Shown here in pieces: positions 56,847 through 63,965 of a stretch of 64,000 bases of DNA. Made by a program: the position numbers and the translations under genes. Origin of the DNA: Algoriphagus sp. (GTDB lineage: Bacteria > Bacteroidota > Bacteroidia > Cytophagales > Cyclobacteriaceae); the NCBI RefSeq assembly GCF_024305035.1, contig NZ_JAMWZB010000009.1, positions 62,001 through 126,000 on the forward strand, given 5' to 3'. The notes under the pieces are model-generated. The model made no database searches and was not told the DNA's origin. It worked only from the letters and a program-made list of their open reading frames with translations. Every line of letters begins with the position of its first letter. Position 1 is the stretch's first letter.

Positions 56847-57582
56847 GACTCAAGGATTTTTTAGCTGTGTTTTTTTTTAATGTCCATTGCATCAGTTTGG
56901 CAATGGCTGGAGAAAATCGATCCTCATCGGTGATTTCTTTGAGGCTTTCGATTGTATCTGCAAAGAAGACCTCACCCTCAAATAAGTAAATCGCCCGATT
57001 TGTCAATTCTTCCAAATCACTCAAAATGTGAGAAGTGATCAGAATTAACTTCCCTGCCTTCCGCTCTTTTTTGATTTTCTTTTTGAGCACCTCTACTGCG
57101 ATGGGATCCAATCCGGCGGTAGGTTCGTCTAAAATCAACACATCCGGAAGGAACAGAAAAGCCAAGGCTGCCGAAACCTTCTGTCGTGTTCCTCCCGAGA
57201 GGGTTCCCAGCGCCTTATCCTTCATCCTCTCTAATTCGAATTGTTCCATCAGTTCACTATCGTAGCCTTTAATTTCTGGGCGCATATCCTTCATCATGGC
57301 AAAGAGTTGCCCGATTTTCATATTGGCCGGATAGCGTCCAATCTGGGGCATGTACCCGATCAAACTTCGATACTGATGATTCCCTTGGACCGGAATTCCC
57401 TTGACCAGAATCTCCCCCTGATCCGGAATGACCATGCCAAGGAGAGTCTTAATCAGCGTGGTTTTCCCACTTCCGTTTGGTCCCATGATGGCGTAGCTGT
57501 TTCCCAACTCAAAATCCAGGGAAAAGTCTTTGAGTACTTCCAGCTTGCCAAACTTCTTCGATACCTGTTTAACTGAAATCAT
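56839..57582 (-). CDS. nosF: NosF, ABC transporter ATPase of the nos cluster
   Basis: 247 residues with Walker A GPNGSGKTTL, signature LSGGTRQKVS, Walker B LILDEPTAGLDP and switch His in ITSHIL. It drives NosDFY in the cytoplasm. The gene overlaps nosD by 14 bases and nosY by eight. Confidence 0.95.
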   Translation of the reverse strand: MISVKQVSKKFGKLEVLKDFSLDFELGNSYAIMGPNGSGKTTLIKTLLGMVIPDQGEILVKGIPVQGNHQYRSLIGYMPQIGRYPANMKIGQLFAMMKDMRPEIKGYDSELMEQFELERMKDKALGTLSGGTRQKVSAALAFLFLPDVLILDEPTAGLDPIAVEVLKKKIKKERKAGKLILITSHILSDLEELTNRAIYLFEGEVFFADTIESLKEITDEDRFSPAIAKLMQWTLKKNTAKKSLSHV

Positions 57583-59940: not shown

Positions 59941-61899
59941 TTATTCAGCGTCTCCTGTCGAATAACTCAGCGGCACATTGGCGCCCTTGGGAGATACCCG
60001 GAGGTAACCCTGCATTTCTTGGTGAAGGGCAGAACAGAAGTCTGTACAGTAGAATGGGAATACCCCTACTCGATCGGGAACCCACTTCAGCGTGGAAGTT
60101 TCTCCTGGCATAATCAGCAATTCAGCGGTATTGGCACCTTTGATGGCAAATCCATGGGGTACATCCCAGTCTTGCTCCAAATTGGTGACGTGGAAATAAA
60201 CCTCATCTCCTACGTGAACTCCTTCGATATTATCCGGTCTGAAATTGGATCGGATAGAGGTCATGTACACATGGACTTCATTTCCATTTCGCTCCACACG
60301 GGCATCATTGATGCCTTTAAGGGCATGCGGACTTTGGTTATTTTCAATGGGGTAAAATTTGACCTGACGATCTTTGATCAAGCTGGCCGGAAAAGCCTCT
60401 GCATAGTGAGGCTCCCCGATGGTAGGGAAGTCCAAAAGCAATTGCATCTTATCTCCTGAAATATCGTAAAGCTGTGCGGAGTGAGCCAATTCCGGACCCG
60501 TGGGCAAGTAGCGGTCTTTGGTGATTTTGTTGTAAGCCACCATGTACTTTCCATGCGGTTTTCCAGTAGGTCCTCCAGGTACACTCAAGTGACCCACAGA
60601 ATAATAAGTAGGCACTCGATCCAAAACCTCTAGGGTTTCAATATTCCACTTTACAATTTCAGAGGACACAAACATGGAGGTGTAGGCATTTCCTTTTCCA
60701 TCAAATTCAGTGTGCAAGGGGCCTAATCCGGGTTTTTGAACTTCACCATGAAGAACCGATTCGTATTTCAAAACTGGCATTCCGTTGATGTCGCCTTCGA
60801 AGTCCCCGTTTTCAATTGCGGCAAGCATTTTTGTGAAGGAAAATACAGGAATGATGGCTGCTAATTTTCCGGAACCGATAATGTATTCCCCTGTAGGATC
60901 GGTGTCAGTTCCATGAGGAGACTTGGGACAGGGAATGAAATACACGATATCTTTGAGTACCGTCGGATCAAGCGTTAGTACTTCTTCGATGATTTCTGAG
61001 CTTGCAGAGTGGGTTGCCTCATCCCATTTGTTGTGGGCGTATTTTACTTTTCGGGTAGTACCCTTACCTGCTTTGACATATTCTTCCGCTTTTTTCCAGT
61101 TAACGGCCATAATAAAATCCTTGTCCTTTTGGGAAGCATTCACTTCCAAAAGCGTATGGGCCATTTCGGTATTGTAAGTAGAAAAGAAAAACCAGCCATG
61201 CGATTTGTTTTTACCGGCTCGGGCCAGATCAAAATTGAAAGGAGGTGCTTCGATCTGGAAGGCCAGGTCCATATCCCCATGGGTGGGATCCACACTGATA
61301 AAGGAAATGTATCCCTTGAAATTATCCTTGTAGGAGTCGATGGATACGTCCTGCTCTTCCCCTACCGGAACTGAAAATCGGGTACCTGCCACCACATACT
61401 CGGTATTTTGAGTGATAAAGGGAGAGGAGTGATTTCCAGCAGAATTGGGAATCTCAATGATTTCTACGGTTTTAAAGGTATTCAAATCCACTCGGGCAAT
61501 CCGTGGGGTATTATTGGCATTGCCAAAAGCCCATCGGGCATCGTGTTCGGCATTGGTCGTAGAAATGGCGATGTGGTGTAAATCATCCCAAGGAATAAAT
61601 CCATGAGCAGTATTGAGCATGGGTTTGGTTTCCTCTGAATACCCCCATCCATTTTCCGGATGGACCGAAAATACGGGAAGAATCTTCAAAACCCTTCCTG
61701 AAGGAAGACCGACAACGGACATCTGTCCATTAAAGCCACCAGAGACAATGTTGTAAAACTCATCGTGCTCGCCTGGGGCCACATAGACTTTGGAGGCCGC
61801 ATCTCCTGTGATGGCAGATTGGGCTCCTTTGGGTTTACATCCGGGTGCCAGTGCCACTGCGATTAAGCCAGCGGCAACCAGCCATGTGTGTGTTTTCAT
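59941..61899 (-). CDS. nosZ: Nitrous oxide reductase, clade II (Sec-exported)
   Basis: 652 residues. The N-terminal signal (KTHTWLVAAGLIAVALAPGC) lacks a twin-arginine, which marks the clade II form; the Cys at residue 21 may even be lipidated, although P-G-C is not an ideal lipobox. The propeller carries DDLHHIAIS and CPKSPHGTD (CuZ region). The cupredoxin end holds the CuA site: Cys618-x3-Cys622-x3-His626-x2-Met629 within CTDFCSALHQEM, plus HGFAIKG. It reduces N2O to N2 in the periplasm with two electrons. Accessory genes follow at once; unusual repeats precede it. Confidence 0.97.
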   Translation of the reverse strand: MKTHTWLVAAGLIAVALAPGCKPKGAQSAITGDAASKVYVAPGEHDEFYNIVSGGFNGQMSVVGLPSGRVLKILPVFSVHPENGWGYSEETKPMLNTAHGFIPWDDLHHIAISTTNAEHDARWAFGNANNTPRIARVDLNTFKTVEIIEIPNSAGNHSSPFITQNTEYVVAGTRFSVPVGEEQDVSIDSYKDNFKGYISFISVDPTHGDMDLAFQIEAPPFNFDLARAGKNKSHGWFFFSTYNTEMAHTLLEVNASQKDKDFIMAVNWKKAEEYVKAGKGTTRKVKYAHNKWDEATHSASSEIIEEVLTLDPTVLKDIVYFIPCPKSPHGTDTDPTGEYIIGSGKLAAIIPVFSFTKMLAAIENGDFEGDINGMPVLKYESVLHGEVQKPGLGPLHTEFDGKGNAYTSMFVSSEIVKWNIETLEVLDRVPTYYSVGHLSVPGGPTGKPHGKYMVAYNKITKDRYLPTGPELAHSAQLYDISGDKMQLLLDFPTIGEPHYAEAFPASLIKDRQVKFYPIENNQSPHALKGINDARVERNGNEVHVYMTSIRSNFRPDNIEGVHVGDEVYFHVTNLEQDWDVPHGFAIKGANTAELLIMPGETSTLKWVPDRVGVFPFYCTDFCSALHQEMQGYLRVSPKGANVPLSYSTGDAE

Positions 61900-61921
61900 G
61901 TGTATATATTTGTTTTTTAGC

Positions 61922-61994
61922 GGTCACATGGAATCTCGCGTTTATAATCACCCCGGTTTGTGAGAGGTACGTCATACTCGATTTCATGTGTTTA
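61922..61994 (-). repeat. Leader repeat unit A upstream of nosZ
   Basis: 73-base unit, 93% identical (68/73) to unit B 88 bases away. Outer inverted arms CACATGGAATC (61925-61935) and GATTTCATGTG (61980-61990) enclose an inner hairpin (61950-61954 with 61964-61968). On the nosZ strand, inner pairing survives in unit A by a G-U pair. The minus strand also has an ATG-initiated frame (61987 to 61835) that starts MKSSMTYLSQTGVII and overruns the nosZ start in another frame. Confidence 0.85.
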
Positions 61995-62009
61995 TAGGTA
62001 AATTTTAAG

Positions 62010-62082
62010 GGTCACATGGAATCTCGCGATGATAATCACCCCGGTGTGTGAGGGGTACGTCATGCTCGATTTCATGTGTTTA
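62010..62082 (-). repeat. Leader repeat unit B upstream of nosZ
   Basis: Second copy of the 73-base unit. Outer arms 62013-62023 and 62068-62078; inner stem ACCCC/GGGGT (62038-62042 and 62052-62056). On the minus strand a 27-codon frame (62075 to 61992) starts MKSSMTYPSHTGVII and ends four bases before the ATG of unit A's frame. Confidence 0.85.
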
Positions 62083-62100
62083 CGATTTGATTTTTAGAGG

Positions 62101-62167
62101 TCAGATGGCATACCCCGGATATTCATTCTCCTGTGGGTTGACTACTCGACAGGGGTATTTCATTTGA
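62101..62167 (-). repeat. Diverged third leader element upstream of nosZ
   Basis: Shares GGTCA-x-ATGG and the ACCCC...GGGGT elements with units A and B at nearly the same spacing, but most of the middle differs. Its arms (62101-62116 and 62152-62167) pair over 13 of 16 positions around a 35-base loop. The minus strand carries a 20-codon frame (62163 to 62101) starting MKYPCRVV. Confidence 0.65.
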
Positions 62168-62189
62168 ATAAATTAGTTAGTCTGGATTT

Positions 62190-63965
62190 TTACAGCGCAC
62201 CGTCTTTTTCTCCGGCTTTTTCCAAATCATTTTTCCGGAGAAATTCCAAGATTCCCCGGGCATCACCCACGGAGATATTTTGATTGGGCATCCGAGTAAG
62301 ACATTCGGCCAAAAGCTCCTGAGCCACGGGGTCTTCGTCCAGCATCACATCCACATTGGTAATCATATTCATAATCCATTCTGGACGGCGACGATTGGTC
62401 ACTCCCTGAAAGCCGGGGCCCACCAAGCGCTTATCATTGAGTTGATGGCAGGCTGTACATTTCATATCCACAATGGCTTTTCCGGTACTGACCAGATTTT
62501 CATCAATGGATTCGTCGAGATCCACATTTTTGATTTCACCGATTCCTTTTGGATCGGCTTTGACTTGTTGAGTCGCTTCTTCTGGCTGAGTCGAGCTTGC
62601 CGTGTTTTGGCTTTCTCCTCCTGCGCAGGCGGTCATGAGTATCCCTAGGATCCCCAAAGACCAGATAAGTGATTTTTTCATAGAGGGGGTACTGTTTTGA
62701 TTTGGATTTTTTGAAGTTAGATTGAGTTGTGAAGTATTCGGTGACTTATTTTCAAGTTGGGTAATCCACAGGATTGCTAATCCCAGAGGAAATAAAATGG
62801 AGAATAGAAATAGGAGAAGATGGTATTGAGGAATAAAGCCTAGCTTCAACCAGAGCAAAAGCCCTTGGCTGAAAAGTAGGATTTCAGTACTGAGAAACGC
62901 CGAGATTACGACAAGCCATCCCGCAGCACTGGACCGTTCCATGGAAAGGTCACCATTGAGCATGGCCACCGCGCCCAGCCCAAAACTCATGATTCCCAGC
63001 AGCACCAGATGAAGAAACCCGATCACAAATTGCCTGATCGAATAGGAAATCACGGCTACGGAAGGAAGAATAAGGCAGAGTTGAAGAATAGCTTTGACTG
63101 TCAAACTGATCAAGGCTGCATAGATCAAGAGTTTAACCAGCTTAGGTAGTTCCAAGCCTTTGACACCCTGAAGTAAGGCTCTGAAAATCCAGAAATATAC
63201 CATTCCCTGAAGTCCCACAGCAATAGCGTTGATTGTGAAAAACAAGGGGTTGGGTTCGGCCCAGGTGATGACCAAAGCATAGGTAAGTCCCACCGAAAGG
63301 ATCATGACCCCAATCCGGAAGACAGACCAATGAATCACTCCCCTCACCTGCTCCACCCGATAAATCAAGAGCCCTAGTGTTCCGAGCACAAACCAGCCAT
63401 TGAGCTGAAAGTGGAGAAACCATTGGATGCTCATGAAATACAATTCGTGCATTCGTCCCAGGCTAACGGTCACTGGGCCCAGCGCCCAGAGACCCAAGGT
63501 TGAGATCAACTGAAACCCAATGGCAAGTTGAATCAGTCGGATCCCCAGACTAACAGCTTGCATCCGAAGCGTCCCAAGAAGCCTAACGGCTAGGATATAG
63601 GAAACCAGCACATGGAGCGTAGAGAAAGAAATACTCCAAACTCCATAGCCTTGGACCGGGAAAGTGACCAGCATGCCAATCAAAGAGATCAGGATCAGCA
63701 GAAATAGCCTTCTGTATTTTGGGATAACTACCTGTGCAGATTCCAAACTGAAAATAATCCCACCTGTGATCATCAAATACCCCCAACCCAGGAGTGCCAA
63801 ATGCGAATGCGTATGGAGCACATTTTTGTAATCCAAAACGGCAGGCATCGCCATCACATGAAATGAGCGCATGACCAGTCCCAAAAGGGCAGCAATCAAA
63901 AAGAAAGCTAGCGCCCACCGGGTCCAGGTCTGCTTAAATGCGATATGCGAAAACGTGGGGGTCAC
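62190..63965 (-). CDS. Fusion: His-rich multi-TM protein joined to a c-type cytochrome lipoprotein, nos cluster
   Basis: 591 codons from a GTG at 63965. Residues 1-400 form about 12 TM helices with conserved-looking His sites: HTHSHLALLGWGYL, HELYF, WFLHFQLNGW and RQFVIGFLHLVLLG, a pattern like heme-binding, oxidase subunit I-like membrane proteins. After a 30-residue polar linker, Met429 starts a full lipoprotein signal (KKSLIWSLGILGILMTACAGG) and a mono-heme cytochrome c (CTACH; possible distal Met in TRMPNQ). The cytochrome probably passes electrons to NosZ. It may be one fused protein, or the cytochrome may also be made from the internal ATG at 62681. Role in N2O reduction inferred from place. 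Confidence 0.85.
   Translation of the reverse strand: MTPTFSHIAFKQTWTRWALAFFLIAALLGLVMRSFHVMAMPAVLDYKNVLHTHSHLALLGWGYLMITGGIIFSLESAQVVIPKYRRLFLLILISLIGMLVTFPVQGYGVWSISFSTLHVLVSYILAVRLLGTLRMQAVSLGIRLIQLAIGFQLISTLGLWALGPVTVSLGRMHELYFMSIQWFLHFQLNGWFVLGTLGLLIYRVEQVRGVIHWSVFRIGVMILSVGLTYALVITWAEPNPLFFTINAIAVGLQGMVYFWIFRALLQGVKGLELPKLVKLLIYAALISLTVKAILQLCLILPSVAVISYSIRQFVIGFLHLVLLGIMSFGLGAVAMLNGDLSMERSSAAGWLVVISAFLSTEILLFSQGLLLWLKLGFIPQYHLLLFLFSILFPLGLAILWITQLENKSPNTSQLNLTSKNPNQNSTPSMKKSLIWSLGILGILMTACAGGESQNTASSTQPEEATQQVKADPKGIGEIKNVDLDESIDENLVSTGKAIVDMKCTACHQLNDKRLVGPGFQGVTNRRRPEWIMNMITNVDVMLDEDPVAQELLAECLTRMPNQNISVGDARGILEFLRKNDLEKAGEKDGAL

Follow-up and report, generated by a model that had tools for sequence, protein, structure and literature searches.

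The repeats that fill most of the space in front of nosZ in the window (the whole 64,000-nucleotide stretch of Algoriphagus DNA analysed here) are, judging from sequence comparison, probably three tandem copies of a short non-autonomous mobile hairpin that inserts at ATGAAA. They are not a special switch of nosZ. We find the element dispersed at more than 90 places in the genome, empty and filled sites at the same gene start, and arrays that mix units of different subtypes, and we class it as a variant among the non-autonomous mobile hairpins of the REP/PATE kind. When a copy inserts at an ATGAAA with which a gene begins, a new ATGAAA stands at the start afterwards, so that the gene retains its start codon and its second codon, now preceded by a new leader. 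A parasitic repeat can in this way occupy gene starts without killing the gene, as its last bases rebuild the target ATG AAA, a frequent protein start in these bacteria. The element alters the leaders of many genes at once and is a natural source of expression variation, and it has to be excluded before any upstream repeat in the family is called a riboregulator. No earlier description of it was found in the literature covered, which included few subscription papers and offers weak evidence of absence.

Three tandem units at the start of nosZ

The nosZ gene encodes a Sec-dependent nitrous-oxide reductase (TIGR04246, 918.9 bits) and lies at 59941..61899 on the minus strand, as do the upstream gene and the parts of the array described below. 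The upstream gene (62190..63965) has a C-terminal cytochrome c-like domain, for which the NCBIfam matches are weak and fall below cut-off. Between this cytochrome-type gene and nosZ is a gap of 290 bp, most of it taken up by an array of exactly 264 bp (3 x 88) at 61894-62157. Read on the nosZ strand, a host ATGAAA (62163-62158) is followed by units C (62070..62157), B (61982..62069) and A (61894..61981), each of 88 bp and each ending in CACATGAAA. The right end of unit A is the start of nosZ: the last, element-borne ATGAAA of the array (61899-61894) provides both the start codon and the second codon, Lys2. The host ATGAAA to the left of the insertion (62158..62163) appears to be the original nosZ start region, on the basis that the leader of a relative (L085) ends ...AATCAA-ATGAAC where the window reads ...TTCAA-ATGAAA. 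It lies 26 bp from the stop codon of the upstream gene, and its ATG is exactly 264 bp from the present nosZ ATG.

A sequence-only reading of this region had described two 73-bp units, identical at 68 of 73 bases and with an 88-base period, plus a diverged third element, and the sequence recount, the repeat comparison and TRF (61894-62108, period 88, score 295) all agree with that description. Over the whole 88-base period the units are 85% identical. The boundary word TTTCATnTG recurs at 61894, 61982, 62070 and 62158 (reading TTTCATTTG at the last); the exact 88-base spacing makes the third element a complete unit of 88 bp, and its stem is of another subtype. This is unit C, of subtype 2 (stem ATACCCC/GGGGTAT), and units A and B belong to subtype 1a.

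Each unit contains a guide-like internal segment, which is GATTCCATGTG in units A (61925..61935) and B (62013..62023) and ATGCCATCTG in unit C (62102..62111). In unit A this segment complements, save for one A.C, both the target ATGAAAT and the right end of the unit itself. The left hairpin, TGACG-nnnn-CGTCA in the family, is eroded in unit A (TGACG-tacc-TCTCA, 61961..61974) and has one mismatch in unit B (TGACG-tacc-CCTCA, 62049..62062). In single-strand folding only unit B is clearly better than shuffles (z -1.86 and -1.75 for the two strands), and the other four folds, those of units A and C, have z of -0.15 to -0.83. A scan of 61700-62400 found no terminator and one sigma-70-like promoter site, compared with 1.2 in shuffles, Bacteroidota promoters lying outside the models of the scan. 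A separate 16-bp tandem repeat of 2.4-3.1 copies is present at 57379-57429 (TRF).

Unit anatomy, dispersal and insertion sites

On the gene strand, the consensus unit follows immediately 3′ of a host ATGAAA, or in fewer cases of a variant of this motif, and reads TCGAGCA-TGACG-nnnn-CGTCA-CACAC-nn-GGGATGATTAT in its left part, followed in the remainder by GCGAGATTCCATnTGACC, an A-rich stretch and TATAAACAnATGAAA. Units are mostly 88-93 nt long and carry their own CAnATGAAA at the end. Of the 76 arrays that have both ends, 70 could be parsed for their flanks, a few of them shifted (the window, L014, L033 and others). In these 70, the left flank has A57 T61 G60 with a G or C preceding in 53, its AAA being required by the parsing, and the element-borne right end has A66 T69 G69 A70 A70 A64. 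The outer pairing is kept with different letters in the two stem subtypes (TCGAG/CGAGA and ATACCC/GGGTAT). One outer-stem position (columns 7/65 of alignment A2, 9/67 of A1) is a near-invariant mismatch, A.C on the gene strand and T.G on its complement; it is found in 44 of 45 mostly cross-genus units and in 59 of 63 units of a first set.

Fold stability alone would not prove the structure, as only unit B beats shuffles; covariation across genera does. Within the 45 mostly cross-genus units, the left hairpin is paired in 89.8% of cells and has a covariation of 0.181, compared with 0.091 for shuffled and 0.017-0.029 for slid controls. Pairing also links the internal segment TTCCATnTG to the right end of the same unit, CAnATGAAA (84.9% paired), and the two covary (0.073 vs 0.019 shuffled, reached by 0 of 500 shuffles). 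The base n is changed on both sides, in guide and right end, in 18 of the 45 units and in 13/63 of the first set. Between guide and left flank, covariation is 0.039 vs 0.038 shuffled, none beyond the fixed core, and the case for guidance by pairing therefore comes from the invariant core and from analogy. The guide covariation offers a direct test of guide-directed site choice. Long variants (L217-L236 of G130; L027 7231-7270; L184 2023) carry extra internal GC palindromes, such as TCCCGATnATCGGGA or CCCCGAnnnnTCGGGG, and these variants are the only ones with a right hairpin, which may itself be a nested palindrome. The long G130 units look like IS605-type right ends, but palindromes resembling theirs also occur at unrelated places (L328, L083), so nested palindromes are equally likely in them.

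The element is abundant in this genome. We observe 51 matches by DNA search and at least 143 by covariance model (CM) at E <= 0.01, among the best 150 candidates scored. An HMM run over the window and 75 loci resolves 145 units in 93 arrays of 1-4 units (61 single, 16 double, 12 triple and 4 quadruple), a set that leaves out four weak CM places on contigs C24, C8, C13 and C4. With more than 140 copies of the unit in the genome, tandem units are far beyond chance. Comparing equal-length units only, 17 of the 99 full units are at least 97% identical to a unit elsewhere and 27 are below 85%, so the family holds both recent and old copies. Contigs C16, C47, C26 and C48 of this assembly (G000) end near units; the genome may hold more units than were counted, and an assembly broken in this way may lack some multi-copy elements.

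Beyond this genome, the DNA search finds the family in 39 of the 58 further genomes of the genus and in none of 38 from outside it. The CM search extends it to 64/148 genomes and 41/84 genera of the same GTDB family, many with one to a few weak matches; 12 genomes, this one included, have at least 24 CM matches, counts per genome being capped at 27. Plasmids, phages and IMG/VR, searched with one unit or one motif, gave no match. On the complete G036 chromosome, with position 1 taken as origin, strand counts are 34:32 and 24:25, showing no clear replication-strand bias (the best free split was reached by 14/500 shuffles).

Empty and filled sites can be compared at the same gene starts. For nosZ, where the nearest named records point to Algoriphagus as the genus, the comparison took in the best 80 of 589 loci, all from named records of other genomes; a single one has a unit at the nosZ start. 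It belongs to A. lacus (L095) and is the only one with a unit among the 12 loci named Algoriphagus. Because its unit differs in sequence and stands alone, the nosZ start codon has been hit twice. Two relatives show the empty site: A. hitonicola (L085; NosZ 97% identical) and A. faecimaris (L086; 95%). In both, a short leader matches the window's outer flank and then leads directly to the start codon. A coaD match was found in 36 same-genus genomes, our own included, and of the 30 loci compared two are filled and 28 empty, many of the latter having the start a few bases behind an apparent upstream stop. The filled loci are that of the present genome, with three units (L018), and that of G021, whose unit (L388 1948-2034) is clearly different and represents an independent insertion. 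In G023, a unit lies inside the coding sequence of a RAYT (REP-associated tyrosine transposase) with GAAA on both sides. The intact relative L290 has CCACAGGAAAGC at this place, which makes the right-end ATG part of the element.

Arrays could have grown by serial insertion or by duplication. Of the 32 arrays with several units, 20 combine more than one subtype. Units A and B are 0.852 identical and each has a best match elsewhere of 0.864 over the full unit; over the 62-base core, unit A is nearest to unit B (0.887 vs 0.855). Since subtypes are mixed and A and B are no closer to each other than to units elsewhere, serial insertion at the new ATGAAA is favoured over tandem duplication, and old duplication within arrays is compatible with the same subtype and identity data. 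Each inserted unit would bring a fresh ATGAAA at which later copies can insert, building arrays with an 88-base period. The sequence-only reading had raised an expansion of a duplicated nosZ start region, which local slippage or unequal recombination could have produced. The 68/73 identity of units A and B over the hairpin and their common 88-base period would fit this origin; however, over the full unit both A and B have closer relatives than each other, unit C belongs to another subtype, units are dispersed genome-wide before unrelated genes, relatives have a plain short gap as nosZ leader and 79 of the 80 other NosZ loci have no unit, leaving it next to no probability. It is also very unlikely that we observe an integron-like array of gene-less attC sites moved by a tyrosine recombinase. 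Such an array would likewise be made of tandem, hairpin-forming sites in the same orientation with a shared core, but attC sites have the R boxes GTTRRRY and RYYYAAC, and both motifs together occur in 0 of the 99 full units.

Genes behind the units and the question of regulation

Many units directly precede genes. Nine of the 93 arrays have no intact right end and were left out; in 44 of the other 84 the terminal ATGAA(A) opens a frame of at least 60 codons, and in 40 it does not. The 44 opened frames reach at least 121 codons, except for one that breaks off after 63 codons at the limit of the locus compared, and the frames of the remaining 40 arrays have 57 codons or fewer. Among the 44, two start with GTG (L016, L186), one with CTG (L180) and five with ATGAAT or ATGAAG, and two frames (L019, L177) break off where the sequence of their locus ends; four arrays with misplaced or mutated ends (L190, L200, L203, L179) were scored as non-starts among the 84. 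Genes opened by units with NCBIfam matches above cut-off encode NosZ, CoaD (TIGR01510), IspD (TIGR00453), GalE (TIGR01179) and WecB (TIGR00236). As CoaD and IspD are usually essential, the end of the element most likely allows initiation. Of the ATGAAA outside units that are either noncoding or at a start, starts make up 0.29-0.54, a background that varies with the minimal gene length, the allowed offset and the scope. The observed 44/84 (0.52) exceeds a background of 0.29-0.38 with strict gene calls (P down to 6e-6), while with loose calls, at a background of 0.43-0.54, there is no clear excess.

At nosZ, the element has turned a 26-bp gap into one of 290 bp and has supplied a leader with hairpins as well as an A-rich initiation region. 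The sequence-only reading had proposed a riboregulator or translational leader here, partly from a G-U change in the inner stem of unit A that keeps pairing on the nosZ strand. The change is present in the sequence; as a sign of an RNA role it fails in the wider family. Left-hairpin mispairs on the gene strand of 196 units number 42 G.T vs 64 A.C, the latter being G.T on the other strand, so there is no sign of selection for RNA pairing on the gene strand. The short ATG-AAA frames that had been pointed out also exist (61835-61987 and 61992-62075), and the preference for hairpins over a conserved leader peptide was sound: pairing is kept but the short peptide is not, the end of the ATGAAA frame in 92 units lying at -4 from the next ATG in 27, at +4 in 22 and scattered in the rest.

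A cis-acting RNA regulator specific to nosZ, such as a riboswitch or a copper- or N2O-responsive leader, would agree with the paired structure, the 5′ leader position, the pairing on the nosZ strand and the better-than-shuffled fold of unit B. We consider it highly improbable in view of the rarity of units at the NosZ loci of other genomes (1/80 overall, 1/12 in those named Algoriphagus), the 93 arrays in one genome before unrelated genes, the 40 of 84 arrays that open no frame of 60 codons, and an Rfam 15 scan of 61600-62400 that gave two rows only (E 0.44 and 4), far below the gathering score. The search of the genome for further copies returned many unrelated ones, an outcome that the sequence-only reading had itself taken to speak against its proposal. 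Somewhat less improbable, yet still doubtful, is a mobile element domesticated as a shared leader, with a common RNA-binding protein or small RNA acting on the core (CACAC..GGGATGATTA, ATTCCATnTG). Most core columns are at least 90% conserved in the 45 mostly cross-genus units, 44 of 84 arrays lead into a gene start that is oriented as they are, and the strict gene calls give an excess of starts. However, the orientation follows from the target motif, the looser calls remove the excess, ATTCCATnTGACC is intact in only 59 of the 99 full units of this genome, and no functional theme is evident among the 44 genes (by eye, eight of them scanned with NCBIfam). On the evidence of sequence, the data appear to contain nothing that calls for regulation of nosZ by the array, and the effect of the mobile hairpin on nosZ is most likely incidental.

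Known mobile hairpins and candidate mobilising enzymes

In the mechanism that we propose, an enzyme acting in trans would move the element as a folded single strand, and the site would be chosen by pairing of ATTCCATnTG with the target and with the right end, by analogy with the guide of IS200/IS605 elements. In these elements, a guide 5′ of the hairpin is described as pairing both with the target that flanks the left end and with the last bases at the right end (PMC6006769), and insertion occurs 3′ of a fixed tetra- or pentanucleotide, forms consisting of the ends only being called PATEs (PMC7290912). As far as these accounts go, the units resemble IS200/IS605 elements and PATEs in having a subterminal hairpin and no terminal inverted repeats (PMC7290912, PMC6006769), and resemble IS200/IS605 elements in inserting 3′ of a fixed short target, in carrying a segment complementary to the target and to the right-end cleavage site, and in the order of target, left hairpin, guide and right-end target. 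The PATE criterion of insertion immediately 3′ of a fixed short target corresponds to what we find in the 70 parsed arrays and at the empty sites. Unlike the IS200/IS605 elements so described, the units have no transposase-bearing copy with unit ends among the loci compared, their target and right end have the hexamer ATGAAA in common, their complementarity covers about 9-11 nt rather than a tetranucleotide, and they often stand in tandem arrays.

REP/REPIN sequences are also short, dispersed noncoding hairpins of high copy number that are sometimes tandem, and they are thought to be moved in trans (PMC3116915, PMC3733652, PMC8266576). The units differ from REP/RAYT systems, as these sources portray them, in that a GTAG foot is not a family feature (GTAG or CTAC occurs anywhere in 12/99 units), no unit stands beside intact RAYT genes in the loci compared, and insertion is sequence-specific at ATGAAA. 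The TAACTGA repeats of marine Beggiatoaceae, some of which are in Bacteroidetes and whose origin is given as unexplained, are direct repeats just upstream of the start codons of unrelated genes, as the units are, but they are 7 nt long and have no element-borne start codon reported in the available part of that account (PMC4679880). The BrickBuilt MITE of Porphyromonas gingivalis is like the units a non-autonomous, intergenic element of the Bacteroidota and has internal tandem repeats and promoter activity; unlike them it has 23-nt repeats and IS5-type terminal inverted repeats and lies 49-591 nt from coding sequences, the available part of its description reporting no reuse of start codons (PMC4596501). 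A further reading, possible though on balance not the likelier one, is that the units act as self-spreading initiation cassettes. Target and right end would both be ATGAAA served by one internal guide, the mover would be other than the known Y1/RAYT enzymes, and the start regions of dozens of genes per genome, coaD and ispD included, would have been replaced unbroken across the family, perhaps with a bias towards starts.

No mobilising gene was found, the Y1 and RAYT genes having no consistent link to the units. Y1_Tnp (PF01797) was rejected as the mobiliser: the window's own genome has two decayed copies only (L044, L045), one with an in-frame stop, and no unit adjoins them. PF01797 is present in 24 of 25 genus genomes, with or without units, and alike in many-unit genomes and in genomes without a DNA-search match, and unit-rich G014 has none. 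It occurs in 16/16 unit-bearing family genomes, but the loci compared share no ends. No Y1 gene among them is bounded by unit ends, that is, there is no autonomous copy. Only three of the 49 Y1/RAYT loci first screened have a unit-like match below E 0.001. A unit is inserted at the end of the Y1 gene at L060, and other unit-like matches at Y1/RAYT loci are weak (L241, L252) or at chance level (L063, L239).

The units could also be REP-like sequences mobilised by a RAYT of subclass 2.6, an explanation that we consider unlikely. Published accounts report this subclass in Bacteroidetes with atypical flanking structures and also treat subclass 2.4; insertions of REPs inside tnpAREP genes are reported there for another subclass (PMC6006769). 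Several unit-rich genomes have one RAYT subfamily ('MGEAYQIRDQEMPYF', RAYT-A), and units lie inside or at the edge of its genes in three genera, at recurrent codons about 11, 97, 126 and 168, the first three of which are GAAA with CA a few bases upstream. Units at genes of this subfamily are found in L252 (2326-2366), L287 (2571-3096), L288 (1216-1309 and 3503-3612) and L346 (2336-2378), and further ones in L347 (2399-2488), L350 (155-619), L351 (2515-2608), L360 (1847-1941) and L361 (1902-1996), several being weak, type 2-like matches. Against this stand the intact subfamily genes without a unit in the flanks compared (mostly 1.5-2 kb), most of which carry GTAG palindromes of their own, the low yield of the locus screen, and the absence of the subfamily from unit-rich G000, G040 and G127 at E 1e-10. 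RAYT-A was rejected as the mobiliser, as its presence does not track unit number by eye, and the units within its genes may mark neutral DNA rich in targets. The GTAG-type palindromes, GGTGTAGTTTGTAACTACACC and GGGTGTAGTTGCAAACTACACCC, lie about 150 bp on either side of most intact RAYT-A genes (L307-L332) and are apparently those genes' own REPs.
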